Below, piece by piece: positions 7,701 to 63,684 of a stretch of 64,000 bases of DNA (positions are counted from its first letter, which is position 1; every line of letters begins with the position of its first letter). The notes beneath the pieces are model-generated. The model worked only from the letters and a program-made list of their open reading frames with translations, made no database searches and was not told where the DNA came from. The DNA comes from Capitulum mitella. Its lineage: Eukaryota > Arthropoda > Thecostraca > Pollicipedomorpha > Pollicipedidae. The stretch is taken from contig CP099849.1 of the NCBI GenBank assembly GCA_030062745.1, positions 24,540,144 through 24,604,143 on the forward strand, in the 5' to 3' direction. Both the position numbers and the translations under genes were made by a program.

Positions 7701-10700
7701 ATTATCAAACCCCTGCATGCGTGCAAATGGGGATGAGCCCCAAAACAGCAGTCCCCAGCCTGACTGCACTGATGCAAGATCTGATTTGCATACATGCATG
7801 ATTACAACTGCATGATCATTAAAATTTTCGCCACAGGGTGTAGCTGTGAGATGCTTGTTCAACTAAACGCCTCCTGGTCTGTTAAAGAAACAATTCAGAT
7901 GGGCCGGCAGGAGCACAATTAATGCACTAGCGACTCTTAGAGACAGCAATGATGATGAGTCAGTCCCTAATGTAATCAGGACCAAATGACGAATCGGTGA
8001 GACGTGGCGGACGACTCACGAGTTCCGGCTGAGTGGCGATCAGTCCGAGCTGTTCCCTCCTCTCCCAGACGGCCTCGATCCACGAGTCGCGCAACACGGG
8101 CAGACCGAACGTGACCGCGTACCTGCAGCGGCAGAAACAGGGCCGTCAACACCGGCAGACCGCCGCCAGCAGCAGGCACGTCACTGGCAGCAGACAGACT
8201 CGTCCTAGCAGCTGACACAGACTTATCAGCAGCAGCAGACAGACCCGTCCCGGCAGCAGACTCATCCCAGCAGCGGACACGGACTTGTCATTAGCAGCAG
8301 ACTCATCCAAGCAGCGGACATAGAATTGTCATCACGGCAGACAGACTCGTCCCAGCAGATGGCAGACTTGTAATCAGCAGCAGACTTTTCCCAGCAGTGG
8401 ACTCAGAGCTGCCATCAGCAGCAGACCGACTCGCCCCGGCCGCAGACAGACTTGTCATTAGTAGCCGACAACCTCGTCACAGCAGCTGACAAAGACCCGT
8501 CAACAGCATCCGACAGCCTTGTCACAGCTGCTGCTAATAAAGGATTATCGGCAGCCGCAGACAACTGTCAACAAGAGCAGACAGGAACCTGCCATCAGCA
8601 GCAGACACTAACCTGTACTTTTCTCCGGAGCAGGCGTTAGCCACCACGTGCGTGATATTTGGGCCCACCTCCCTGCGAACCGAGCCGCCCAGGTGGTGGA
8701 CCAGGTCCACCAGCCGCTTCTGCCAAGACAGGACACGTGACAGGTTAGCAGAAACAGAAACTGAACGAGTGACAGGTCAGCAGGCAGCAGGGACCAGCCA
8801 CATGACAGGTCAGCAGACAACAGACCGGACTCGTGGCAGGTCAGCAGACAACAGAGACCGGACACGCGACAGGTTAACAGACAACACAGACCAGACACGT
8901 CACTGATCAGCAGGCACCTGACCGGACACGTGGCAGGCCAGCAGACAACGGAGCACGGGTAGGCGATCGGTCGGCAGACAACAGACCAGACACGTAACTG
9001 ATCGGCAGTAAGAGACTGAACACGTACCTCGTCAGCACACCACAGAGACATAACATCTGACTGATCTCTAGACAACAGACTGGGCACGTGATTGGTCAGC
9101 AGACAACAAAGACCCACCAATGACATGTCAGCTGGCACGACAGAACATATTACTGACCAGCACAGCCGGAAACACAGAGAGGACAATGTTATCACACAGA
9201 AAGGACTCGTCACAAAAGATGAAACCGACCAGCAGAAGCAGCGGGCTTCGGATATTGCATTTTTCGTGGCAAAGCATCGCAGTATTACATTAAAAAGCGC
9301 GTCGCACATTCACGGTACAGTTAAAATGGTGATCTTCAGAACATGAGACACCAACTCGTTTACACGAGCACAAGACCATGACATTAGGATGACTGATCAC
9401 CAGTGAAATAGGTCTTCATCGCAGAAAGGCACTCAGTGCCGTCCAACAGAGAACCCACCAGCTGCTGTCGGATCCTGAACCCTGTGAAGCACATGGTGAC
9501 GTCCTTCATGGCGGCCGAGAAGAGCGGCCGCGAGAGGTTTGGCATCGGGATCTGGCGGGAGACGATGTCGAGCAAGGCCGGCCGGCCCAGCACGCTGCAA
9601 ACGAAGTCAGGCGTGCATCAGAAGGGGCAGAGTTCTGGCTCTCGCTGATGGCCGGCGAATGCAGCAATTATTCAAAATCTTAGATGCCTGACAACTGCAA
9701 TTATTAAATCGTACGCTGACACTAATCGGTAGTGAAATTTAAACTCAGCACAAACATTCTACAAGTTGTGTTACGAATGATGACAGCAAGAGGTGTACCA
9801 CTGTATGAAACAATACAATGCATGAACAATGCCAGTCTAAACAGCACATTTCCATTCACTGAGCTGAATAACTCACACTCCATCTGCATCCACCAGGTGT
9901 GTGAACAGTTCACCATCAAACTCCTTCACCAGAAAAATGGTTTCATATTCGGTGTCTGACAAGCATTCATCAACAGCTTTTGAAGTGATTGGCAGTTTCA
10001 GAGACTGAAAAAGAGAATGACACATTACAAAGTTGGCTGGTCATTATGAATGTAGCTCTTAAACAATGACTACATCATAATTAATGGTGTTAAACTGTAT
10101 CTGCTACCAAAGATTTCTAGCCTGCTACCTGCTTGCCTTGTTCACAACACCCATCACTCATCGGTGGCAGGAGCAAATTCGGAAAAACGAATAGGAGGGA
10201 ACGACGTGGTCCAGAGCAACTCTTGCAGTAGTAAAGAAACCATGGTATTTAACATAATAATTCAGAATGACACACAAATCACAAGTTTCTACTTCCATTT
10301 GGCAGCATGTTTTGCTGGACTGGAGTAATTTCAACCTGTTTAGGAGTCCCACACATCAGACAAATCCTCACCTCAGCAGCCTGAATCACTCTCGGATCCT
10401 CGGAAAATGATGACTCTGTTATGCAGAGACAGAGGCTGGCCAAGTCTGCCCCTGCAATAATGTTTTATGCCCTTGAGAATGGTACAGCATGGTCAGACAA
10501 ACAAGAATCGGTCACTGTCTGACAGAAATGGGAGCAGACTGGTGTCACGTCTGGTTACAAAACAATTTATCTTACAACACAGAGTTTACAGGGCAAATGA
10601 GTACCTGTAACAATGTTATATTAAGTCATTTATTTGCCATTTATATTATGCCATATATGCTATATTAACCTGTAAAACTGTTTGTTATATTACACCAAGA

Positions 10701-10753
10701 CAAATCTAAACAGCCATCTTACTTATGTTTGGGACAGGCTTTTCAGTTTCCAT
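4571..10753 (-). CDS. ECT2 RhoGEF, N-terminal part (3' end off window)
   Basis: ECT2 (Pebble in flies) is the guanine-nucleotide exchange factor that activates RhoA at the cell equator in cytokinesis. Its BRCT repeats bind phosphorylated RacGAP1 of centralspindlin. Twelve exons are recognised, 5' to 3': 10723-10796, 10372-10451, 9877-10004, 9459-9594, 8613-8719, 8020-8122, 7119-7271, 6472-6612, 5983-6144, 5509-5617, about 5064-5182, and 4571 to about 4745. Boundaries are GT-AG. The phases agree at every junction except the last one, where the exact donor and acceptor are ambiguous. The encoded order is BRCT0, BRCT1, BRCT2, basic linker, start of the DH domain, as in the animal family. I chose the ATG at 10751-10753 because it has a strong Kozak context (AAG before, G after) and lies about ten residues before BRCT0; the 5' part of that exon is then UTR. 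Human ECT2 has a longer N-terminal tail, so an upstream coding exon cannot be excluded. No frameshift is seen. Confidence 0.9.
5064..5617 (-). CDS. ECT2 exons: serine/proline-rich linker
   Basis: Exon 5509-5617 encodes a segment with SSVNDINLLSTSGSFLDATP. This corresponds to the human SLSIGSLLDISNTP stretch between the NLS and the DH domain. It ends in phase 1 and joins exon ~5064-5182, which starts GVRPSRLTPIFENP and runs into a six-proline tract. TP sites are present in both exons, consistent with Cdk phosphorylation sites in this linker in other animals. The 3' border of the second exon is ambiguous between two overlapping GT donors at 5064 and 5066. Confidence 0.75.
5983..6144 (-). CDS. 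ECT2 exon: nuclear-localisation linker
   Basis: This 54-codon exon is phase 0 at both ends. It contains a TP dipeptide followed by the basic run TTRKRKRLRETLHQLARDT. It aligns with human NTPNSNRKRRRLKETLAQLSRET, so both the NLS and the adjacent Cdk-type TP site are conserved. In the family this region keeps ECT2 nuclear in interphase. The 3' end of the exon also encodes a TSPPAG tract, whose DNA includes a TGACGTCA octamer inside coding sequence. Confidence 0.88.
6472..7271 (-). CDS. ECT2 exons: BRCT2 domain
   Basis: Exon 7119-7271 encodes VRLLGFSEEERQHMLEVL, an ENGGQLA segment and CTHLV. This is the BRCT core of a first strand, a helix, the GG turn and the THLV strand. Exon 6472-6612 continues with VVDDSTVKEQ and then HIVKAEWFWACIQMDA, the diagnostic third helix with its WFW motif (human: YVVKQEWFWGSIQMDA). 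Both exons are phase 0 at both ends, so each is an exact codon cassette of 51 and 47 codons. The intron between them holds a 44-bp minisatellite. Confidence 0.92.
6690..6800. repeat. 44-bp minisatellite in ECT2 intron
   Basis: Three tandem copies begin with CCGGGCCGGCAGCAGCTACC and continue with a CACACACCA...GCCATTAGGTCAC segment. The period is about 44 bp. The array is confined to the intron between the two BRCT2 exons. Confidence 0.8.
8020..9594 (-). CDS. ECT2 exons: BRCT1 phosphopeptide-binding domain
   Basis: Three exons make the domain. Exon 9459-9594 ends with DVTMCFTGFRIRQQL. Exon 8613-8719 encodes RLVDLVHHLGGSVRREV, then ITHVVANACSGEKY. Exon 8020-8122 encodes YAVTFGLPVLRDSWIEAVWE. 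In human ECT2 the phosphate-binding residues are T153 (in CFTGF) and K195 (in GEKF); both are conserved here (CFTGF, GEKY). Binding to phospho-RacGAP1 is therefore expected to be retained. Phases run 1 to 0, 0 to 2, and 2 to 0, consistent throughout. Minisatellites flank the middle exon on both sides. Confidence 0.92.
8150..8612. repeat. CAGCAGCAGAC minisatellite in ECT2 intron
   Basis: Many degenerate units of 25-45 bp are built from AGCAGCAGACAGACTCGTC-like modules. The array abuts the 3' end of the BRCT1 exon at 8613 and occupies most of the intron down to 8122. It is related to the array on the other side of that exon. Confidence 0.75.
8725..9115. repeat. ~40-bp minisatellite with E-boxes in ECT2 intron
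   Basis: About nine degenerate units of the form GACACGTG..AGGTCAGCAGACAACAGACC repeat with a period of about 40 bp. Several units contain a perfect CACGTG E-box (for example near 8745, 8928 and 9086). The array starts a few bases upstream (minus sense) of the exon at 8719. Confidence 0.75.
9877..10753 (-). CDS. ECT2 exons: N-terminus and BRCT0
   Basis: From the ATG at 10753, exon 1 encodes METEKPVPNI. Exon 10372-10451 encodes the first BRCT0 strand and helix (LCLCITESSF through VIQAAE). Exon 9877-10004 encodes TEYETIFLVKEFDGELFTHL, matching human EFENVFVVTDFQDSVFNDL. Junction phases are 1/2, 0/0 and 2/1. Unlike the 3' exons, these use AT-ending codons and contain few CpGs, in line with the CpG-poor block that contains them. 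They are weaker matches than BRCT1 and BRCT2 but are fixed by phase and order. Confidence 0.8.
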
Positions 10754-10786
10754 CTTGGTCAACACATTAATCTTGGCTGCTTCCCG

Positions 10787-12173
10787 GATCTCTGGGCTGC
10801 AAAATGAAGAAATCAGCAATGACATGCCATTAAGACTGGAAAAACCTTATCAAAACTTTGTTAAAAAAATGGAAGCAAATATGGTACACCATGCACAGAA
10901 GTGATGACATCCAAACTTCTGGCCACAGTGATGCCCAATAACCTGTAACATAACACAAACACATTTACATCATCACTGCAAAGTCCAGCCATCAACAAAA
11001 GTATCTGACCATGGTTGCAAATGGTTCTGCATGGTTGGAATGAAAAGTTCACATGACTGAGTCACATTTCTTGCTGGTAAAAGCAAGGATGTCACTATGG
11101 AAAACATTTTTCATACTCTGCACCAGGTCCTGCATAAAGCATGTTAAGAAATAGGATGATTTATTGAAAAGTTGGATAATTTGCCTTTGGGTCATAAGCA
11201 ACAATGGAACAATATTCACTGTCAAATTCTTTTGTTCTCAAAGATTCAGTCAGTCAAATCAAAGTCAAAGTCAAACCTGATGTTTCTGCATTAAAAAAAA
11301 CTTAACTCAACATTGTTTCTTATCATCACCTGGGGCATTCTGATGCTTCTCAAGCTGACTTAAAAGGTGCAACTGATTTCTAGGAACACAAGGCCTCAAC
11401 CCTGGTCATTGGTTATCAATATGGCCAAATTCACTCAGGCATTAAGGATATAGACTGCAATTCATGCTGTCAGACTTGTTCCTGCCACAGCTCTGAACTG
11501 CCACATCTGGTTATTGGCTGCCTCTCCAATAACCTTTGAACCCTTCATGCATCCAGACCTGCCTGTCCAATTTGTACTGCCTGGAGCAGACACCAGCTCA
11601 ATAATATTGTCTACTCAATGTTGACTGGTTGGTCTCAGATAAGGGGAGGAGTCATACAGCTGAGAGGAAGCCTAACAACAGAGGGATCCAGTAGCATGAA
11701 TTAATATCTACTTTGTTGACACCCAGCTGGCTGAATCTGGCCAGTGTTGGTTAGAAATACCTGTTTGACTACTCTATATTTACAAACCACATCACAGAGC
11801 ATAACTAAGTCACTGCTTTACAGTTAGGATGGCTGATGCCTGAAATGGCCTCACAGGAAGTGTGGTGAGTGCCCCATCTGTAGCTCAACCAGTCATGGAA
11901 TCACAAACATTATCTGACAAGACCAGCCCTGAAAGACTACAAGTGTGAGGAATGTGACTTCCTGCTTTCCTGAACCAAGATACAACCAACAAATAGCAGC
12001 ATGAGTGAAAAGGCAATACTGAGCTGGAGCCCACAGACTGTCTACTGCCTCATTTCTCTTATACCCCAGGCAAAATATTAATGTAGAGTTCTGAATCATT
12101 CACTGCTAGTAAACAGAAGCAAGATATATGCTCCAAATGAATACAGTTTTCCCATCAGGGGCATGAGATGCAG
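10787..12173. other. CpG-free block downstream of the putative ECT2 start
   Basis: I read this stretch base by base and found no CG dinucleotide from 10,787 to 12,173, about 1.39 kb, while TG and CA are abundant. The surrounding 9.6-12.35 kb is also CpG-poor, whereas the flanking sequence on both sides has many CpGs. In invertebrates, germline methylation of the 5' gene body erodes CpG to TpG/CpA, and constitutively expressed genes are the usual targets. Position just downstream of the putative first exon of ECT2 fits that. The methylation explanation is inference. No coding exon was recognised inside the block. Confidence 0.8.
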
Positions 12174-12208
12174 CGTAAAATATTGCAACACTTCAGAATG
12201 ATGCCATT

Positions 12209-12226
12209 CATTCATTCATTCATTTT
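12209..12226. repeat. Short (CATT)n microsatellite
   Basis: Four to five uninterrupted CATT units. No other significance. Confidence 0.8.
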
Positions 12227-12551
12227 TTCACCACTGGTACATTCCAGTATGACTACCTAAACAATGCACATACATTGGCAAAGATTTCAAGTATTTCCAT
12301 GACTTAACGATTTGAAAATAAACATTTATCATTCAAAAACTAAAAGAAATGTTTCAATTAGTGGCATGCAGCGAACCAACACACCATATCCAACCCGACA
12401 AACATCTGACCTGCACACGCGGCAAATATAACGCAATTTGAAACACCATTTCCAACACGAATTAGTTCAGTACAACACAGCAAAGTTCACCAAACTGAAA
12501 TAAGCCATTCATACAGCATTGCACGCCAGTTTACCCATCCTTTGTACTCAC

Positions 12552-12760
12552 AGCCTAGGAACTTAGGGTGCCACGATAGCGCCCTCCCGCTGGCACATGC
12601 AAACTCGCCGCCGCTGGTGCAGATGTTTTAAAATCCATCGCGTTGATTGGTTCTTCGATGACCTTGAGTCCTCGTAGGTTTAGGCTACCAAACTTTGCTC
12701 TTCGCTGATGAACGTGGTTGTGGTGGTGAAACGTGTTCTTGAGAAATGCTGTGCATGAAG
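12552..12760 (-). promoter_or_regulatory. Probable ECT2 first exon (5' UTR) and promoter area
   Basis: On the minus strand a strong donor (GTGAGTAC) follows position 12552. Upstream of it lies a CCAAT motif (ATTGG on the plus strand near 12645) and a short open frame beginning MDFKTSAPAAASLH that stops TAG a few bases before the donor. The local sequence regains CpG immediately upstream of the CpG-free block, as expected at a transcription start. I interpret this as a non-coding first exon with an upstream ORF. No TATA box is visible and the 5' limit is a guess. Confidence 0.35.
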
Positions 12761-12789: not shown

Positions 12790-15700
12790 AAAGAAAAGAA
12801 TTGGGTTGCCTAACTTGAGGATATTTGCATCCTAATGTCACCAAAAATATTTTTGGCTAAGTTTCCAGGTTCTTGATTCTACGAATAAATGTGTCTCGAA
12901 AAAACCTGCCACCAGTGGTGTTCATATATCTTCTTTTTCGGGCGCCATGGTCCATAATGTGTATCTTGGCCCGTCCGGAGGTGACTCCCTCTGCCAATAT
13001 TTTCTGTCAGCTTTAAGGAGAGGAAAGTAGTTTGCTATCTGATAAATGATAGCCCCCCCCCCAAAAAAAAAACGGCACAGCAGCCAGAGGGGAGGAGGCG
13101 GGAGCCCAGGCCCCCCGAGACCCGCATTTCTCCTTGTTGAATAGTACCCACTCAGCGAGCGAGGTGTCTCGCCATACTTCATTTACGGGAATGGGTACCG
13201 GTGATCAACAGTTTTCTTAGTGAAAACCATTGCACATCGTCTTCCCAGCAGGCGATTTTGGTATGATTTCAGTTCTTACTGAGCTTCCACCTCCCTTTAA
13301 GAAAACCCTGGCCGCGCCCTGCCAAGAAAATAAAAGCTGCCTCCAGTCAAAATACAGTGTGTTAGGTCCGTTCAAGAAAAAAACTCACATTTGGGGAGAT
13401 GTTTATTGGAAATGTGTACGGCCCTCGGCTCGGTCACCCCCACGCCCTAATCATTACCACAAAATGATATCCTTGCCCGTCAGCACGATCATTAGCTCAG
13501 GATGGGATGAGAAAATGGAGATGCAATTTAGGTGTTCCTTCCCAAAGAATGCGCATACAAGTCATCCTAGAATGGGGATGGAGTCAGGAAGGTTTTGGCC
13601 CGTGTTAGGTACCTAAATTATGAAAATTGGCACCGTTTTTTCAACTAAATATACAGCTGAATCTTCCATTACAACACACTTCAGAGGCCTCCCTATCCAG
13701 TCTCTTTGGCAGTCTTCGATGTTGTAGAATCCTGATAACCTGCTCATAGACACCAATTCCATGCTGCTCGAGCAGGCCACTTTAATAGCCGTACGACAAC
13801 AATCTAAGCCAAACTGATTTGGCACCTGGAACTACCAAAAACCTTGCGTTTAAATCCAAGAGAAGTTCGCATGGTCTTTTTTGTCATCATTGCAAACTCA
13901 CTTGTCCGAGCCATTAACCCATAACTAAGGCCCTATACAGAGATAGGCAACAAGTCGAGCGTTTTTCAGTTTTGTTTGTCCTTGTCATATGCATAAAAAA
14001 GTATGCGGCTAGAACGCATCTTACCAAAAACGTGCGCAAGCGTAGAAAATGGGCAAATTCAACGAAGAAAACTGGCAAGCAGAGGGGAAGGTTTAATGTT
14101 AGTTTCCTGGTGCGAAGAAATATCCCGTACGCAAGGACGCTTGACGGGTCCAGGACCGAAAGATATCTGGATACTGAATCACATATGCTTGTAAAGAATA
14201 GAAAAAAAACAAGTATAGGAAGCTGCACCAATGACCAGGACCCGCTAATGCTCACATATGAGTGCTGGTGTCCCGTGACCAAGGGCCGGGGGGGCAACAT
14301 GGCCGTTCACAGAGTAATCAATGCAATTAATGTGGACACAAATCAGAGGTCCCGAGCCTTTTGTAAGCATTTAATCCAAATGTTTCAAATGCGAGCCGTC
14401 GGATTCAGATGCATGTCGAAGAAATCTTGTGCGACAGTTATTTGTCAAAAAGTAACGCCAGATGATTAACCCATTTTTTATTAAGAAGAAAGTAAAACTT
14501 GCATGACTCGCTTGATCTTGACCACCAAGTCAAGTTTCGTCCAGGAATCCTTAAGTATCCGTATTTCTAGAAAGCAATCTCGTGAAGTCTTGGCAGTATC
14601 AGGGCGCAACCAGCTCAGACAAGAAAAAGTCAAGAAATATGAACCAGTGCTTTTCTAAGACTTCTTCGGTGTTGGGCACTATAGCAAAAGGGCACATTAT
14701 GTGCCGCATGGTCCAGTATGAAAGAAGACCCAGTTTCATGAACATTCATACAGGAGGCGTATTCTGCTTTTCCCACCCGTACTTTAATCCGAAAGGGGCA
14801 CTTCTGACTGGTGGGCACATGCTGAGGGCCACTGGGCAACATGCCCACCACTCAGTGTGTGATAATCCCTGACGTGACCTACCATAAGACCGACGAATGA
14901 AGGCAAGATATTGGGAATGCAGTAATGAGCGAGGGCCCACCGGCCGTCCTAATAAAGGCTTCGTTTCCCGCATATCGTAAGTTTTTTCTCCTTCACAAGA
15001 GGCGCTCCGCGGGGTGATGGCGATGGCTGTTTGCCAGCCACTGTTTTCGCAGCCTTTCTCCGGGTCAGCGTGTGACCAGCTGGCAGCTCGTCTCCCGCCC
15101 TGGTCGCGGAGAACAGCACGGTCTCCGGCCGAGAGCGGTCCGATCCAGCGTCATTGTCATAGCCGAGTCTGCACCTTTGGCACCCGAAATGAACGCGATC
15201 GCCTTCAGCGAACAATAGATCTGGACTGAAAGGGCCGGCATGTGCTGTCTTGAGAAATCTTGTGGAGGTCTGCCACTCCGTATTGGAAAAACAATGGGAA
15301 TGCTATCCTGGCCTGACCTCGACCAGCCTAGGACACAACTGTCTTGAGGTATGATTAGCTTGAGGCTTCACATGCATTTCGTTGTACGTAATCCATGGAT
15401 AACAGATATGAAACTGTCGCCCACTGGAAGGGCCTCGAGACAATCACAACTGAGGCTAGCAAGCTTACCACGGCGTGGAGACCTGACCATGTTTCCCACG
15501 GCCGATGACAACTCACCGGCACTTGAGCTTCAGCCAGCGCCTGATGCCTGAACTCGCCCGGCCTGACCTCTGACAGCTGAGAGGGTATCGGGAGGCAGGG
15601 TAGGGCGCAGACCGCCCGCAGGGATAATAACTCCGAGGGATGGGCAGGGCGCGGCCGGCGGCTCAGCTCAGGGAGCGCCGGAAACTGAGAGGCCGCCGGC

Positions 15701-28871: not shown

Positions 28872-29634
28872 TTAGGTCAACGACTTCGCAAACCAATGGC
28901 CAAATGTAACCAGTGTAACAAAATTGAAATGCCAACAAAATGCCAAGTGGATTATCAACTTTCGCAAACAAACTGCAATAACTTCCCGCGCCATGAGCCT
29001 TCTCGACACATTCACGTTCTGAAAGTCAGTTACATGGAACACCAGAGTTGCTCCGGCTGCAACGGCCGCTGTCGACGTCGACGCTGACCCGTCGCTTGTG
29101 GTCCCACTGAAGCGGATCCCAGTCATCACGCTCGTGCAGAGTGCCTTCTGTGCGCTCATGTCAGTTACTGCGTAATTTTCCAGGCTGGTCACAGGCTTGT
29201 GGCCAGTGAGTTGGGTAAGGTACTTCCTAGGGCATCCTGTGCCAAGTGCATTTTTGACGCAGGTTTTGCGCGCCGAGTGGTTGCTTCTTTTGCCCGCGAT
29301 GCCAGCGCCTTAACATGTCCTTATTTCTCTCAGGCGACCAGCAGCGATTCACTGTCAAGAAGAAAGGACTGTCCTCCTGCAGCATCTTGATCGGGTGGCG
29401 CGGGGCGAGCAGGTTGCACGTCTGCACCAGGCATCTGTCGAGGTTCTCCTTATTTACAAAGGCGTTTGGCTTGAACGTCCGGCTACCAGAGGCCGATCCC
29501 CCGTCGCGGGTCTTGGTTAGCCACTCGTTAAATTCTATATACTCAGTGCCCATGTGGTCAGTCTTCCGCCGCACATCGCCCCATCTCAGCTGGCGGCTCT
29601 CGTCACGGCCGCTATGGACGAACAGCATCGTCAT
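28872..29634 (-). pseudogene. Crypton-like tyrosine recombinase remnant
   Basis: A 135-codon frame (29634 to 29227) contains SGRDESRQLRWGDV, which fits box I of a tyrosine recombinase (Arg in G-R-x-x-E/S). It then has GTEYIEFNEWLTKTRDGG, a KPNAFVN segment and DSPFFLTV, the layout seen in DUF3504/Crypton-derived proteins. Just downstream in another frame comes LTQLTGHKPVTSLENYAV, the box II signature with His and the putative nucleophilic Tyr, followed by a Ser/Thr/Ala-rich tail. The split between frames near 29,200-29,227 and missing parts of the HxxR region indicate decay. The element lies between the two lipoxygenase PLAT exons, antisense to nothing and in the same orientation as that gene. 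Confidence 0.65.
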
Positions 29635-29649
29635 GTGCCCTCAGAGTGT

Positions 29650-54455: not shown

Positions 54456-56111
54456 CAATCTCATGACGCACAAGAAATATACGACCTTCATAAATGCCAG
54501 TTAGTACCCTTTTCCGTTCATCTCAGGAACGGAGAAGAGTGCTGCTGCTGAAAAGTGGCCCGCCCTGTCCAGCCGTATCAGAAGCTCACTGGTGCCCTTT
54601 CCACGTCTGCCGACAGAGTCGGACCAAAGCCCGTCGAGTGCAATCGCCGGCTTCACCACCCTGGTGGTGCCCGTGCGTGGCAGGCCGGACAGCTACGTCA
54701 TCACCCGGGGCAACCGGCTGGCCACCCTCGACTGGGACGGTTGCTCCCAGGAGCACACTGTGCGGGAGTTCGTCGCCGTGGACCAAGATGTGCCGTTCCC
54801 CATGCGCTTCAACGACGGCAAATGTGACCCGCAGGGCACTCTTTTTGTTGGTACGCACCGTGGTGTGTAGGTGAGGGGCTGGGTGAGTGATGTGCATCCC
54901 TGTGGCCCAGGATCATAGCCTTTGTTACGCATTTTTTGTCTGTGATTACCCAAAAGCTGACTGAGATTGGCTTCCATATTTTCTTGCGCGTCTCAGTTAA
55001 GCCTACGTCATGTAAGTTACCCCATAAATATCACGTCGATAACACCGGCCAGGACCTCCGTCCCTTCTCATGACGCTTAGTATCGGTTTTTCATTTTTTT
55101 TGTTTTACCTCCTCGGAGCAAGAATCATCAGCAAGCTCCTGTGGTCATTTGCTGTCATCTCAACGATGAAAACACCTCACAGCAGCAATAGTGATACTAG
55201 ACCACGAACCGAACCCAATCGTCTAACCATGTCGAATAAATGAGACAAAAGCCAAAGGCGACAAAGTACAGGCAGTGATGAATGCTAAACAGCTAGCCGC
55301 CAGAGAGCACCAGCGTGCGCATGATCGGCTCCCTGGTTCTGGCTGGCAGGCACCATGAGTGAGGAGACGGCACCAGGAATCCCCAGACCGGGCGCCGGCT
55401 CCATCTACTTCCTTCAGCTCCCGTGACGGCAGCGCCACCAAGCGGTACTCCAACGTCAGCCTCTCCAACGGGATGGCCTTCAGCGCGGACGGAACCAGGT
55501 TCTTCTACATCGACACCTGCGCCATGAGGGTGGACGTGTTCGATTACGACATGGCGAGTATCAGTGAGTACATCGACGGACATCAGTGCACAGGGGCGCA
55601 GCCTGGGTTTTCTTACGGGGGGGGGGGCTCACGGCACTGTCGCGAATTTTCCCGCTCCACCATCAAAACTCGACTGCTCGTAACATGTGCTTCGGTTGCC
55701 ATCCTTGCCGCCTTCCTCCGAAACCCTTTTTATTTTTCTAGGCAACAGACGCCCAGTGTTTGACGTCAAGGCGGCCCGTATACCGGGCCTACCGGACGGT
55801 ATGACCATCGACACCCAGGGCCGGCTCTGGGTGGCGCTGTATTTCGGTGGAAGCGTCATCTGCGTCGACCCCAGCACCGGCCAGCTGGTGGACCAGGTGC
55901 ACCTGCCGGCGACCAACATCACGTCCTGCACGTTCGGCGGTCCCCGGCTACGACACGCTGTACGTGACGTCGGCCACAGCTGGGCTGGCCGAGTGGCAGA
56001 TGGTGGCGCCAACCCGACGCCGGCGCCACCTTTAAGGTCACCGGCCTGGGGGCTCGCGGCTCGTGCAACGTCGACTGCAGCATCGACTACGAGAAGCTGA
56101 AGGCGCTCTAG
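53645..56111 (+). CDS. Regucalcin/SMP-30 copy 1 (frame-disrupted)
   Basis: Regucalcin (SMP-30) is a six-bladed beta-propeller gluconolactonase/calcium-binding protein of the cytosol. Exons: 53645-53798, 54617-54850, 55350-55563, 55742-56111, with the same phases as the intact copy 3. Active-site positions are present: Glu in GEGPHWD, Asn in MRFNDGK, Asn in LSNGMAF, Asp in LPDGMTID. Exon 3 has one extra base near 55,412 that leads to TGA at 55422-55424. Exon 4 has two extra bases (near 55,944 and 56,011), making it 370 bp instead of 368. Exon 3 also lacks two codons relative to copy 3. All three disruptions are single-base insertions, so a recent pseudogene and an assembly artefact are both possible. 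AATAAA follows at 56382-56387. An AG at 53624 before a segment conserved in all three copies suggests a 5' UTR intron. Confidence 0.85.
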
Positions 56112-56381
56112 GAGAGAAGCTCGCTCCGAATAGCGGACGGACGCATTCCTCAAAGCCAGCTTCCGCTTCCAATTGATGTCACAATCACAAATGACGAACA
56201 GAGATATTGAAGGAGACTTGCCAGGGACCTTCAATTTGAACGCGTGTATACGTACAATGTTGTCGGATGATCCGTTACTGCGAATAGTCCTGATGTACGT
56301 TCGTCACGGTATATAGAAGTGAAGTGGTATATCTACAACATAAGTCAGAGTGTGTGCTGAGCTAAGTCACATGTTGTGTGA

Positions 56382-56387
56382 AATAAA
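56382..56387 (+). terminator. Polyadenylation signal of regucalcin copy 1
   Basis: AATAAA lies 271 bp downstream of the stop codon of copy 1, at a normal distance for a short 3' UTR. It is immediately upstream of the second unit of the tandem duplication. Confidence 0.5.
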
Positions 56388-56460
56388 ACGAAAAAGACTG
56401 CGTCAGTTCGTCTTAACAGTGACGGAATTCGGATACGGTTCATGGGTGAGACAGAGAAGC

Positions 56461-56841
56461 CTAAAAGTTGTAAAGCCACCTGCTTTCATGCAACGGGTAA
56501 TGGGGAATTGGGCAGAACACAGAGAGGAGGGCAAACCACTTGTCAGCAACAGATGTAGATGAAAATACGCCAGGCCAGTCAGCAAGGTGGAGATTACGGT
56601 GAAAGGGACTTGAATCAATGCGACAGATGGCGCACTGGAAGACAAACGTTGGCGCTCTGCGTGGCCCAGACACAGAAATGCGAAAGTGAACGATGTTAAG
56701 GGGACGAAAATTGTAGTGCAATGTACTGCAGTTAAGAACAGTGCAGTTACCTGCACTCAACACTACATCGAGTAGCGAGCCGCTGGTAAAAGTCACGTCT
56801 CTGATAAGAGACGTAAGTCTTCTTAAATTATGCATATGCAC
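56461..56841 (-). pseudogene. LINE endonuclease-region fragment (duplicated)
   Basis: A 126-codon minus-strand frame reads LTSLIRDVTFTSGSLLDVVL, then FRISVSGPRRAPTFVFQ and RIDSSPFHRNLHLADW, then VADKWFALLSVFCPI. This is the end of a LINE endonuclease domain and the linker to the reverse transcriptase. It is the paralogue of the 5' part of the LINE at 51.4-51.8 kb and is present only because the tandem duplication begins inside that element. Its frame is better preserved than in the parent copy. Confidence 0.75.
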
Positions 56842-59365
56842 TCAAGCGCAGTACCGCGTACACCAAGCGGCAGAGACAGCCTAGTTTATTTCCCCCAGCA
56901 TGCTCCTCATAGCAGTATCTGTTAGGTACCATCACCTCATAGTCTTGTGGGCATCTGTGGGTCCGTCCTTGCGTACGATCATCAGGCAGTCTGAAAGCCA
57001 GAAGCTTTTTCTCTTTATGTTCCATCAGTACAAGCTTAAAAGAGACTGCGCTAAGTGTAAGAGCGGACAACTTATTGGCTCATGGCGTCTTTTATGTTTA
57101 CTAAATACTGCTCACTTGAATGGGACATGTTGCTGTCTGCACCATGAAATGTCTCGCTCAAGTTTACGTCTTCACTTTATTGACATTACGACTCAGTAAC
57201 GTCAACTTAATATCACTTTGAGCAATACCATCTCAGTGACAGTGGAGATGCAAACAACCATGGCGTTGCTGACTCGTAAAAATAATGAAAAAAATGAACA
57301 AAATTAAATATATCGTTCAATATATCATATATCATATAATATCATTATGAATATATCATATAATATCATTGAAGGACAAATGCCGATGCTGAAGCCCTTC
57401 TGCTTTCAGCATTTCGATTTAGCCTTCACACTTACCAGCAGGAGCGAGTGGGCCTAAGGAGAGTTTCCATCTCTGTTCGAAAGTTCACGGGTGGTGGTGT
57501 CGCGACAGCCTGCAGTCGAACAGCGGACAGACCTCAGAGCCAGTTTGGTGACCAGGCTGCCTGGAAGGCTTGCAGGCTCAAGGTGGGTACCAATAAAATC
57601 CCGACATTTTTTTCATATCTCAGGTTTTCTTCTTCGTCTCATGGAGTGTTGCACCTCCGATACCGCTGTGTGACAAAAATGTAAAACATGGTGATGTTTT
57701 TAAGAAATTTACTCAAATTTCGTGCTTCAAAACATACCTGAAAATGCCCACAAATAAAAATGTTGTTGCTTGGTCTACCCTGATCTGTGATAATTCTGAA
57801 ACGTTGTGTAAATCGCGTAACTGTTTTATGGAATGAAACTTTAACTATTTTTATCCAGTACGTGAAATACTATACTCCACGCCCGTTTTTTGAGGATTTT
57901 AACAATTTTCATCTTGGGATATCACAAGGTAACGTCAAACGTTAGTAAGCCGTGGATTCCGTTGAATGGTCTGATTTCATGTTCTCTTGGTAAATAGGGA
58001 AGAGCTTGATGAGTTCATCCAGCGGCGACACTATTTAAAGCTCAGATGAGCGAACCGCCTCATACCACGCGCAACATCGCTCCTGCCTGACGAGTCATCT
58101 AGCGTGACAGGATCGAACTGTTATATCACATGCGTTTGACTGACTGATTTTTTATGAGGAGGAGGGGGAGGGGTAAAAGATGTGTTTGCTTTCTTCGCGA
58201 CTCATCTCCTCGCTGCATATTTCTCCTCTTCAAAGAGGGACGGGGGGGGGGGGTCCGAAGGCCGGGCCCGCTATCCCTTGAATGCGCCCTTGCTCAACTT
58301 CTGTAACCAACATCGGAGTGGCGCTGGCATCTGAGCAGCGCTTCTGTGAGTGAACTGGCTACTCTCACCATCACATAGCTCCATCATTGATAGTGGTACG
58401 AACATCCGACAACCGCTATCTGTGTTCTGGTAGGTGCACTCCGACCGACAACAGCGCAGTTGTACGGAACATAGCAAACTGTGATTCTTTGTCTGCGGAA
58501 ACGCCGGCAACAGTTGGTACCCAGCACGGGCTCTAAACGGGAAATGTTTTCACTTCACATCCAGTGTCGGCAGAAATTATGCATCCGGTCGCGGTGGTAT
58601 TTTACGCCAGGCTCTCGCCGATTTCTCTGACATCACGCTCCACTGCTCAGAAGCTGCCGTAGCCTCCAGAGTCACGTTGAAAATCGAGAAGATTTCCAGC
58701 GGCCACCAGGTGGGCGAAAGTCCCCACTGGGACAACGCCACTCAGTCACTCTACTATGTGGTCATCATTGGACAGAACATTCTGCGCTGGGACGAACGGC
58801 GACCAAAGTGCACATCGGTGCGTAGCATCGACTGCAGTAGCCAGCCGAACCCCTTCCAACGTAGTTTCAGTCTTCATTGGATCTGAACGTTGTTCAATTT
58901 AGGAGGACCCACGCTTAACGTCGTAGTGCAAAATATCACTATAAACTGCAGAGCTGGTAACAGTAAAACCACTCTAAGGTACTCTGCATAATCCAGCGAA
59001 GGTCTTGATCATGTCAGAAGGTGGTGAATTTTGTGGTTGATGACTTTCATTGCGTTTTGAGATGACTCTTGAACGAATGCGAAGGACGCAACCCACAGAC
59101 TTCTGTGTGAAACCAGTGTTTGGAATAATTGCGACCGATTTACAATCATTATAATTTTCCATCTTTTTCTCAGATCTACTGCATTTAGAAATGATGCTCA
59201 AACCGACGTCTTAACTGAGGACGAAGTCCAGACACCCATTTTTAAATTAGGAGCTGAGAACAATTCCACAAGGAAAATCACCCCAATATGCATTCGAAAT
59301 AAGTCTGAGAGGGTTGGAGCAATCGGAATAGAGTAATTGAAAATCTTCTCGTGGTAGCAAAAAGA
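56485..59365 (+). repeat. Tandem segmental duplication, unit 2
   Basis: Paralogue of 51,430-54,455. It differs by an AT-rich insertion near 57,310-57,365, the loss of about 110 bp of intron 1 and scattered substitutions. It ends near 59,365, where a tandem satellite replaces the sequence that should lead to exon 2. Confidence 0.85.
58674..58817 (+). pseudogene. Regucalcin copy 2, exon 1 relic
   Basis: The sequence KIEKISSGHQVGESPHWDNA is clearly exon 1 of regucalcin, with the 5' splice donor still intact (GTGCGT). Three lesions mark it as dead. The start ATG has become ACG (58674-58676). Ten bases are missing near 58,800 compared with copy 1 (144 bp instead of 154), shifting the frame. No exon 2, 3 or 4 follows before copy 3. 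The catalytic Glu (GESPHW) is retained. Confidence 0.9.
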
Positions 59366-59403
59366 CATCATCATATATATCAAGACCAAAGCCAGGATCA
59401 ATA

Positions 59404-59845
59404 AGGGTCAAGGTCACGAAAGGCCAAGGTCAAACAGCTTGTGACCTGACCCAAATTTGCTTTGCAACATGTCGGTTTGTATGAAATATGCATTCAAAGG
59501 CCATAATAAAAACACGTGTACGCAAACTGATACGCTTACATATACCAGGGTCTGTCAAGGTAAAGGTCATCAAAGGCCATAGTCAAATATCTTGTGACCT
59601 GGCCAAGATTTTTTTGGGGCGTGGCGGTTTTTATGAAACATGCATTCAGAGACCCTAATAAAAACACGTGTGTGCACACGGAAACGCATTCATATATACC
59701 AGAGTCATTTCAGGTCAAGATCACCAAAGGTCAAAGGCAACTGTTTTGTGAGCTGGTCCAGATTTGCTTCGCAATATGTTGATTTGTATGAAATATACAT
59801 TCAAAGACCCTACTAAAACACGTTAGGCACACTGATTCTCTTATG
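59404..59845. repeat. ~145-bp tandem array with AGGTCA motifs
   Basis: Three units start at about 59,404, 59,547 and 59,701. Each has AAGGTCA-like motifs at its start, then TTGTGACCTG, a GTATGAAATATGCATTCA segment, AATAAAAACACGTG and a CATATATACC end. AGGTCA half-sites, sometimes as TCAAGGTCA (an FTZ-F1/ERR-type site), recur in each unit. The array begins where the segmental duplication stops, inside what would be intron 1 of copy 2. Confidence 0.8.
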
Positions 59846-59849
59846 TGTA

Positions 59850-60605
59850 TACATATATACATATACATACATACATAAATATAGACGCCAGAAGTGACCA
59901 AATGTATCGATGTTGGCTACCTTCACTGAAAATATGCCAAAAGATACATGTTGCGCCCTCATTTACTCTCAAACTCTCCCGTGTTGTTCGAAATCTGATC
60001 TGCAAAAGATAAAAAAATGACGCCATAGGTCAATGACCTGACATTACCTCGATCCAGAATCTTCAGTCAAGACACCAAATGAATGTAAATTGTCGTATTC
60101 CATGTTCTAACGGCCCAACAAACATTCTTTTCACGTTTCATTCAAAAAGTTGCACGGAATGGCCCTTACAGGCCAAGAAAGTGTCCAAAGTTGACCTTTT
60201 GCACCCTATTTGACCTTAAAGATATCGACCTGGTGTCATGAAACTTGCACACAATGTAAATGGTTACAACCCTACTCTGTTCATAAAATTTCATATCCCT
60301 GGCTCTTTCGTTGCCGAGAGAGGGGCACTTTTAGGATCCCCCTTCCAGTGCGCGTTAACGCAAAACTCCCTTCCACTGCGCAGATTAAATGGCTCTCCTG
60401 CCTGAGACGAAGACAGGCAGCGCTCCAGGCGAAACTCAAGCACAATGTACCCGGAGCATGCTATTAATGTTTGCGGTCGACTGAAATGCAGATGGTATCG
60501 GAAAAACGCTTCTTTCAGCAAACGTTGCTCGTCGGTGGAGTGCTCAACTTTGACAAAAGTATGCGATGTCCATATTTTTTTTGTGGCTGCGACAGTATCG
60601 AAGCT
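59850..60605. other. No recognised gene; possible transposon end
   Basis: AT-rich DNA with a TATACATA tract at 59,850-59,880. A segment (60,190-60,330) with TTGACC, ATATCGACCTGGTGTCATGA and AAACTTGCACA resembles dispersed invertebrate repeats. No coding exon was found. Confidence 0.35.
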
Positions 60606-60609
60606 GGAA

Positions 60610-61128
60610 TCAGACAGCTTTTAAATGCGGCATTTTTTTTAGGCGCCTTTGCCTACCGTTCTCCTTGCCATCCGATTTTGACTGCTTTTTATGCGTCGTT
60701 TTCAGTCTGCGAGATGAGTTTGGTTTATGCTTTAAGAGTGACATATGCATGACAATTGTGTATGATTTTAGAGGACTGACTTGCAGCTGATGCGTCGACG
60801 ATTTAAACAGATCGATGCATTTCATTCCCCGCTGGAGTGCGGTGCAGGTAACATCATACCGGCTCTTCTCAGACGACCTTGTGGGCTCGCCTACGTTGTA
60901 AATACTGACCATGGCAGAGATGCAAACTGACTGCGCGAAAATCATTCGTGGGTAGGTAGCCGGTGATTGAGACTCCTTGTTCATTATTAAGTACTGCCTC
61001 TGTATGGCAGTGATGATGTAGTCTGAGTACGTTGAGAAGGCTTCATTCACAAAGTCCATCTCCCTGGGGCTGGCCGCAGCACAGTTTTCATCTCTTTCGG
61101 TGCGACGGCTGACGTGTAGCCCCGGCAA
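60610..61128 (-). CDS. Unrecognised 172-codon ORF, possible transposon origin
   Basis: The frame is long for this AT-balanced region. It includes FVNEAFSTYSDYIITAIQRQ and then ICISAMVSIYNVGEPTRSSE-like text. The latter faintly recalls the F-N-x-R-R-G-G-E-P-S-R segment of Crypton/KCTD-type tyrosine recombinases, but the key arginines are not in place. The C-terminus is very basic. It may be a degraded transposon fragment; I do not assign a function. Confidence 0.2.
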   Translation of the reverse strand: MPGLHVSRRTERDENCAAASPREMDFVNEAFSTYSDYIITAIQRQYLIMNKESQSPATYPRMIFAQSVCISAMVSIYNVGEPTRSSEKSRYDVTCTALQRGMKCIDLFKSSTHQLQVSPLKSYTIVMHMSLLKHKPNSSRRLKTTHKKQSKSDGKENGRQRRLKKMPHLKAV

Positions 61129-61612
61129 GGTTCTCGAAGGTGGACGGAGGCTGTCTCCAGCGGAGCGTCTCGTCCGTACTGTGGTCTATCAGGGAGGCCG
61201 CCTAGCATACAGGTGTGTACTTAAGTGTTGCGTGACTTCCCAGGTTTTAGAACTCTGCTCGCCGCAGGAACTGTCATATCGCTAACTGAACATCATCGCT
61301 AACCTACCACCAGGGAACGAAGTGAACGATGTGATATTTAACCACATTGGACCACGCGGGCATGGGATGCACTTCTTCGAACCTAGGAGTCGAGGAACTT
61401 TTGCCCCTAAATTTAGACTTCTTAAAAACATCAATAACTGTGTTCTTAGTGGCATCATTTGAACAACGATTCAGCCTGAATGGAAATTTTGCACTGAATG
61501 TTTTCTAAAACGTCACCGTGACGGAAGTCACCAAAGACGCACAGACCAATACAGAGAGAACGCCGCTTCCTTTTAGTGCGCACTGCAGAAGCTGCCGCTA
61601 CTGCGAGGAACA

Positions 61613-63684
61613 ATGGTGAAGATCGAGAAGATTTCCAGCGGCCACCAGCTGGGAGAAGGTCCTCACTGGGACGACGCCACCCAGTCGCTCTACTATGTGA
61701 ACATCATGGGACAGAACATTCTGCGCTGGGATGAGCGGCGGCAGAAGGAGACCAGAGTGCACATCGGTGCGTGACGCCGACTTCGCGAGCCGCTGGAGAT
61801 TGCAGTGGCGTCTGCCGTAGGTGTTCGGCTCGAAATGCAGCTGCGCTGTCTGGGAAAACGAAAAATGAATCGTAATGAGTTCACAAATTAATCTTTCCAT
61901 GTTCCAGAAATCGTTCACGGTACGAAAATTTTTAGCTCCCAGTTTGCGTATTTCTGTTGCCAGTTATTGCAGAACAGCATGCCACAATAGGCGTCTTCAG
62001 CAAGCATTTACTTTTCCAAGCGGTCGTCCTTGCCATTTCAACACCATAACCAAAGTCTCGTGTTCGTGTATAGACATAGTTAACTCGTGCATCAGCTCTA
62101 GTTTTCTGTAAGCTTTTGAAAGCTTTGTCTCGACAGAGTCTGACCCTGAACCAGCCAGCGGCATCGCCGGCTTCACCTCCCTGGTGGTGCCCGTGCGTGG
62201 CAGGCCGGACAGCTACGTCATCACCAGAGGCAACCGGGTGGCCACCCTTGACTGGGACGGCTGTTCCCAGGAGCACACCGTGCGAGAGTTTGTTGCCGTG
62301 GACCAGGATAAGCCGTTCTCCATGCGCCTCAACGACGGCAAATGTGACCCGCAGGGCACTCTTCTGGCGGGTATGGCGTTTGTTGCTGTGGTGCTGCATG
62401 AATAGCGAAGGGGCCGAGAGGAGAATGGTGAACGAAATGAGGGAATGTCTCAGCTGCTACAGCGAGAGCAAATGTCACATTTGCCCTCGCTCTAGGAGCT
62501 TGACGGATACAGCTGTCAAATGGAATCGCAATGGATCGGCATGGCACTCCCTACGAGTATATGCTTACTGCTGGCCATGCTGGTAGCAATGATTAAGTCA
62601 ATGACGTTTTGCCGTCTTCTGCGACGATCAGCTGCGTCAAGCTGCGCCGGAACATGACCCCGGAAGTTGACATTGTCGACGAGCTAGCCCAACCATTAAC
62701 CTGAATCAAACGCTTGACGCCTAAGTGTACCTTTCACCCTTCTGAGGTCGGGGCCGAGCGAACGCGAGTGTTTGGACACACCTTGAGGTCCATGAAATGC
62801 TTGAATACTTTGTCTAGTCATGCTGACTTATAGATATATATTTCGGCACAGTCATTTGCCCAGTTTGCCACCAGCGTGTGCATGATCGGCTCCCCGGTTC
62901 TGTCCGGCAGGCACCATGAGTGAGGAGACGGCACCAGGAATCCCCAGACCGGGCGCCGGCTCCGTCTATTCCTTCAGCTCCCGTGACGGCAGCGCCACCA
63001 AGCTACAGGACGGCATCAGCGTGTCCAACGGGATGGCCTTCACCCCGGACGGCACCAGCTTCTTCTACATCGACACTCCCACCATGAAGGTCGACCTGTT
63101 CGACTACGACGTGGCAAACACGAGCGTCAGTGAGTTCACCGACGGACAGCAACGGTGTCAGCCAGCGCCGTTGTTATATCTGCACCGTTGTTTTATATAC
63201 TGACTTTCTGACTACTCTGAGAAATAACAGGCACATATGGACTTCTAATCTGGCGAGCGATATTGACTCAAGCTGTGCTACCGACACACTTCTAGCCGTT
63301 CTCTCTCCCACCCTAGGCAACAGACGCCCAGTGTTTGACGTCAAGGCGGCCCGTATACCGGGTCTCCCGGACGGCATGACCATCGACACCCAGGGCCGGC
63401 TCTGGGTGGCGCTCTTCTTCGGCAGCAGCGTCATCTGCGTCGACCCCAGCACCGGCCAGCTGGTGGACCAGGTGCACCTGCCGGCGACCAACATCACGTC
63501 CTGCACGTTCGGCGGCCCCGGCTACGACACGCTGTACGTGACGTCGGCCACAGCCGGGCTGGCCGAGTGGCAGATGATGGCCCAACCCGACGCCGGAGCC
63601 ACGTTCAAGGTCACCGGCCTGGGGGCACGCGGCTCGCGCAACGTCGATTGTAGCATCGACTACGAGGCGCTGAAGGCGTTGTAG
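61613..63684 (+). CDS. Regucalcin/SMP-30 copy 3, intact
   Basis: Four exons: 61613-61766 (154 bp), 62137-62370 (234), 62911-63129 (219), 63317-63684 (368). All introns are GT-AG in phase 1. The CDS is 975 bp for 324 residues, slightly longer than the vertebrate protein (299). The protein matches regucalcin end to end: ISSGHQLGEGPHWDDA, LDWDGCSQEHTV, RLNDGKCDPQGTLLAG, MSEETAPGIPRPGAGS, SVSNGMAF, FYIDTPTMKVDLFDYD, IPGLPDGMTIDTQGRLWVAL, CVDPSTGQLVDQV and TSCTFGG. The metal/active-site residues of the family (human Glu18, Asn103, Asn154, Asp204) are all conserved as Glu, Asn, Asn, Asp. Reaction in the family: hydrolysis of aldonolactones such as gluconolactone, with calcium or another divalent metal. 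The ATG is fixed by homology with copy 1. AG before a segment conserved among the copies (61588) suggests a 5' UTR intron. Confidence 0.96.

Follow-up and report, generated by a model that had tools for sequence, protein, structure and literature searches.

Methylation of gene bodies with a bias towards the 5' end has been described in several arthropods. In Daphnia, methylation is highest at exons 2-4 and drops beyond exon 4, while the introns stay near zero throughout (PMC6097596). In Nasonia, exons and the 5' ends of coding regions are enriched for it (PMC9075658), and a 5' end bias is known for the honeybee as well (as cited in PMC8857917). Arthropods are said to mostly favour exon methylation (PMC7343188). 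The same source reports two crustaceans with little difference between exons and introns, although one of the two had depleted exon methylation, and also a loss of gene methylation in crustaceans. In crayfish, the bodies of housekeeping genes are reported to be methylated (PMC6172769).

Three cnidarians carry more methylation in their introns than in their exons (PMC8857917), and in Ciona, methylated domains lie over gene bodies while the start is unmethylated (PMC3827831). Methylation has also been read indirectly, from the ratio of observed to expected CpGs (o/e). In the copepod Eurytemora (E. carolleeae), a gene mean CpG o/e of 0.5 was called extreme, and it is the genes with the highest, not the lowest, o/e that are enriched for conserved cellular functions (PMC11706791).

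The locus compared here with these systems is the 5' end of a minus-strand gene, identified below as ECT2, within a 64-kb window (the whole stretch of DNA that was analysed). Three features of its CpG content are listed first.

10787..12173, no strand: CpG-free block; 0 CpG, with 58.7 expected; putative intron 1 holds 1377 of the 1387 bases
9775..12173, no strand: the whole depleted domain, 2.4 kb; limits drawn by eye from the positions of CpGs; about 100 CpGs expected, 11 present
12174..12551, no strand: the part of intron 1 nearest the promoter, in which CpGs reappear, and upstream edge of the domain; o/e 0.78 over 12174-12600

As far as its sequence tells, the block fits 5'-biased gene-body methylation in both position and signature, a kind that is already known. 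As in Daphnia, Nasonia and the honeybee, the pattern sits just inside the gene, concerns the CpG context, spares the promoter and fades after a few exons. The domain covers transcribed sequence (putative intron 1 through exon C), with its promoter side spared, the start site being placed by means of a splice donor. Unlike those methylomes, which peak in exons, the ECT2 peak is intronic and is known from a mutational scar alone. The domain also resembles the mosaic domains of Ciona, which lie over ubiquitous genes, in being discrete, related to a gene, spread over exons and introns alike and absent from the start-site zone; however, the Ciona domains are central over genes, whereas that of ECT2 is confined to the 5' part (PMC3827831). 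With the surveys that use CpG depletion as a proxy in Eurytemora (PMC11706791), Cnidaria (PMC8857923) and Ecdysozoa (PMC8821070), it shares the reasoning from o/e. Those surveys give gene-level values, while the ECT2 block has an o/e of 0.00 over 1.4 kb, in a window close to 1.0.

What is unusual in the ECT2 block is the degree (0.00 over 1.4 kb), along with the strongest footprint being in an intron. Because of the latter, such a footprint would be understated by gene-level or exon-level CpG ratios. Among the papers listed, none has a title or an abstract opening that deals with kilobase CpG-free introns in invertebrates, which is not a proof of absence; the term 'CpG desert' is in use in a snail paper (PMC7513791).

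The gene and its exons

The predicted protein identifies the gene that carries the block as the cell-division gene ECT2, on the minus strand. Pieces of minus-strand reading frame match ECT2 in solved structures (best chain 4n40, E 8e-34). When exons A-E are joined, the ECT2-specific BRCT0 domain (ECT2_BRCT0, PF21243; E 2e-10) is obtained, followed by the twin BRCT (PF12738; E 4e-9). A DH-like start, recognised by eye near 4.4-4.8 kb, is a candidate for the RhoGEF part of the protein. The exons used in the rest of the text are as follows.

12552..12680, minus strand: exon 1, putative and non-coding; donor GT at 12551-12550; set by eye, upper end arbitrary
10797..12551, minus strand: putative intron 1, 1755 bp, from splice signals
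10723..10796, minus strand: exon A, with the probable start codon; CpG o/e 0.26
10372..10451, minus strand: exon B; CpG o/e 0.35
9877..10004, minus strand: exon C; the joined exons give ECT2_BRCT0; CpG o/e 0.17
9462..9594, minus strand: exon D, the first exon past the depleted domain; CpG o/e 1.01
8624..8719, minus strand: exon E, lower end approximate; CpG o/e 0.76

The splice signals of exons A-D agree with the reading phases at which they join. Further upstream, a non-coding exon 1 probably stops at 12552/12551, where there is a good donor; both this exon and the start site were placed from the donor by inspection of the sequence. With the donor taken as the end of exon 1, putative intron 1 covers 10797-12551, and the block would make up most of it. 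The first-pass annotation had put the block between the probable first exon and the first coding exon, a placement that fits the splice signals and the reading phase, with the first exon putative.

CpG loss, its signature and its limits

The block contains not a single CpG, where its own base counts (305 C, 267 G) predict 58.7. It is bounded by the CpGs at 10785 and 12174, the longest inter-CpG gap of the 64-kb window, and was chosen for study as such. The second-longest gap, of 237 bp (10548-10785), adjoins the block, and no comparable tract exists elsewhere in the 64 kb. The whole window has 4134 CpGs, with an o/e of 0.97 and a G+C of 51.6%, against 41% in the block. So high a CpG level suggests an invertebrate. 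A comparison set was made of 88 overlapping 1387-bp windows at 100-bp steps, with a G+C of 36-46% and lying outside 9600-12600. These hold 40-90 CpGs each (mean 56.6).

The CpGs that are missing are matched by two other dinucleotides. TpG occurs 121 times where the mean o/e of the comparison windows predicts 85.4, and CpA 143 times where 119.1 are predicted. Together, the two stand about 60 above the level of the comparison windows, and the CpGs that are missing come to a similar number, 58.7 by composition or about 50 at the comparison windows' o/e of 0.85. TpG has a surplus of 36 and CpA one of 24, a difference short of significance (P 0.16), and a near-equal surplus is expected of a symmetric mark. 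Since GpC is normal (o/e 1.12) and CC stands at 0.94, the loss is specific to C before G. Such a deficit of CpG with a matching surplus of TpG and CpA is the balance expected from the decay of methylated CpGs, and it is also one of the features by which mosaic invertebrate gene-body methylation is recognised. The CpG-free observation is real, explained in kind and unusual in degree. The recount agrees with the first-pass annotation on the absence of CpG over about 1,387 bases, on the CpG-rich neighbouring sequence and on the frequent TG and CA.

Low CpG and the surplus can be separated, as 12.8-14.0 kb, upstream of ECT2, has the first without the second. Here the CpG o/e is 0.56-0.66, while TpG and CpA are no higher than in the comparison windows. 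The low CpG at 12800-14000 is of another origin than that of the block.

The signature also bears on the proposal that intron 1 was stripped of its CpGs without methylation, through selection or a sequence preference of chromatin (for example, against CpG in the transcript, or for nucleosome or regulatory sequence). Such a process would suit the position at the 5' end of the gene and a loss fuller than ordinary methylation decay predicts. Yet TpG and CpA specifically match the missing CpGs, a balance that selection against CpG does not require, and the coding stretches of the same transcript have normal CpG from exon D on. It is, consequently, considered very unlikely.

The depletion does not stop at the block. 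The intron pieces of the domain, the limits of which were picked for low CpG, retain 2 of 81.4 expected CpGs if a 57-bp cluster is excluded, and 7 of about 85 if it is counted. Exons A-C retain 4 of 15.5 (o/e 0.26, 0.35 and 0.17), and the retention differs between introns and exons within the domain (P 0.007). The depletion is thus weaker across exons A-C than in the block, and it is gone before exon D. From D onward, the six coding stretches have o/e values of 1.01, 0.76, 1.22, 0.80, 1.13 and 1.19, where the limits are approximate for the last five and the last three were assigned by eye. The contrast of exons A-C with D is a control within one gene, and two CpG states in a single gene place an edge of the domain between about 9.6 and 9.8 kb. 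Below about 9775, CpG returns more softly than on the 12174 side. The edges proposed earlier, sharp near 12.2-12.4 kb and softer near 9.6 kb, are about right.

One short stretch inside the domain keeps its CpGs.

10155..10211, no strand: CpG-keeping stretch of 57 bp in the intron between exons B and C; 5 CpGs against 3.7 expected; set apart post hoc

It contains an inverted repeat, ATTCG...CGAAT. Three probes of 19-21 bases taken from it matched nowhere else in the window with up to 4 mismatches. The stretch may be a recent insert or a protected site.

Beyond the soft edge, the CpG o/e is 0.6-0.7 at 8.2-9.2 kb, which may be a continuation of the domain; CAG/ACA-rich tandem repeats raise CpA there. 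These repeats, in ECT2 introns at 8167-9114, measure 17-97 bp and have CAGCAGACAGAC-like units, and the CpA o/e reaches up to 1.69 in 400-bp windows.

A CpG-poor piece of mobile, virus-like or transferred DNA that landed in intron 1 would explain why this intron is the longest among those mapped between exons 1 and D and why its composition is unlike its surroundings. It would not explain a depletion that spans three ECT2 exons and several introns. Moreover, 9 of the 33 ORFs of at least 30 aa that overlap the block were scanned with Pfam and gave no convincing match (best E 0.07, below the cut-offs), and there was no match in Rfam. Within the window, 9600-12700 gives just two self-matches, both of them short and weak (56 bp, E 0.08; 26 bp, E 0.6). 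No match was found in phage or plasmid records either, which would not hold most animal elements. On these grounds, with self-matches sought across the 64-kb window, a repeat or insert origin was rejected as very unlikely. The idea that an A+T-rich intron is devoid of CpG by chance, or that the block is an assembly artefact, is negligible despite the low G+C of the block, as none of the 88 windows of similar G+C falls below 40 CpGs, 2000 sequences from a first-order Markov model with 7 of the 88 as its training set never go below 37, and the 305 intact cytosines outside CpG speak against an artefact of chemical conversion.

Probable germline methylation and the completeness of the loss

The block is most probably the mutational footprint of heavy germline CpG methylation over the 5' gene body of ECT2. 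It is proposed that a DNMT system would methylate the transcribed CpGs that lie between about 0.4 and about 2.8 kb inside the putative exon-1 donor, with the promoter-proximal chromatin being protected. The 5-methylcytosine would then deaminate to thymine, so that CpG becomes TpG or CpA. In introns, this decay would be unopposed and the CpGs would vanish, whereas in exons, selection would retain a few of them.

The methylation reading is favoured because GpC is normal and all 305 cytosines that remain are in a non-CpG context. The first-pass annotation had spoken of old germline methylation at the 5' gene body. We infer the same from the CpG-specific loss, the gain of TpG and CpA, the CpG-richer promoter side, the edge between exons C and D and the uniqueness of the tract in 64 kb. 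The germline methylation has probably been long-standing, and its scar would outlast a loss of the methylation system for a time. An active methylation system and a constitutively expressed ECT2, both put forward in the first-pass annotation, would be further assumptions.

Three points count against this reading. The strongest depletion is intronic, whereas arthropod methylation is mostly biased towards exons (PMC7343188) and Daphnia introns have next to none (PMC6097596). In Eurytemora, conserved cellular functions are enriched among the genes of highest CpG o/e (PMC11706791). Further, a CpG count of zero exceeds the ordinary equilibrium of decay.

The last of these was explored by neutral simulation, in which CpG transitions were raised k-fold; transitions had a weight of 2 and transversions of 0.5, a single A+T bias was applied, and there were 200 or 1000 replicates. 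The late o/e came to about 0.25-0.27 at k 10, 0.14-0.15 at k 20 and 0.08-0.09 at k 40; with a stronger A+T bias, the values were about 0.23, 0.13 and 0.08, respectively. At k 10 and k 20, CpG-free sequences of 1387 bp made up 0 of 1000; at k 40, they made up 5 of 1000 and, under a second bias, 13 of 1000, and at k 80, 54 of 1000. Under the stronger bias, they numbered, depending on the time point, 0 of 200 (k 10), 0-1 of 200 (k 20), 0-9 of 200 (k 40) and 21-34 of 200 (k 80). For the intron pieces of the domain, the Poisson probability of at most 2 CpGs out of 81.4 is 4e-7 at k 10, 9e-4 at k 20 and 0.05 at k 40, and is softer if the 57-bp stretch is counted. These rate factors are rough, as the model is simple, the block was selected for being the longest gap and the limits of the domain were drawn by eye.

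The simulations suggest that methylated CpGs decay unusually fast, or that selection contributes to some extent. For comparison, CpG mutability is given as more than tenfold in humans and about twofold in amphioxus, over CpGs in general (PMC12862219). It is tentatively proposed, as a rather doubtful extension, that this lineage clears methylated intron CpGs almost fully, with a mutability far above the roughly tenfold of mammals, for example through weak T:G mismatch repair, and that domains would be legible at near-exon resolution. Under such fast decay, the 57-bp stretch would either have been inserted recently or enjoy local protection.

The pattern comes from a single domain in a single window. 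Should it extend across the genome, genes with and without methylation could be separated by sequence alone, with edges located to a few hundred bases. Near-zero CpG would, in that case, also set a lower bound on the decay rate of methylated CpGs in an animal germline.

Other contents of the window

Stop-to-stop ORFs of at least 120 aa number 100 in the window, and 20 of them were scanned against Pfam. Among these 20, lipoxygenase and PLAT domains were found on the minus strand at 18.6-27.9 kb, and SMP-30-like domains on the plus strand at 55.4-56.1 and 63.1-63.7 kb, with a match below the cut-off at 58.5-58.9 kb. In the SMP-30/regucalcin-like pieces on the plus strand (55359-63681), one part of the profile is matched twice, and hence at least two copies are present. 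In 1-kb bins placed around the lipoxygenase/PLAT and SMP-30-like domain matches, the CpG o/e never falls below 0.74. ARAGORN and Rfam gave no match in the window.

Minus-strand ORFs at 28875-29640 include a DUF3504 match below the cut-off near 29.5 kb (E 3e-5). They presumably resemble a tyrosine-recombinase mobile element. Lastly, a tandem repeat with a period of 154 occupies 59406-59843; GGTCAAGGTCA-type motifs abound in it.
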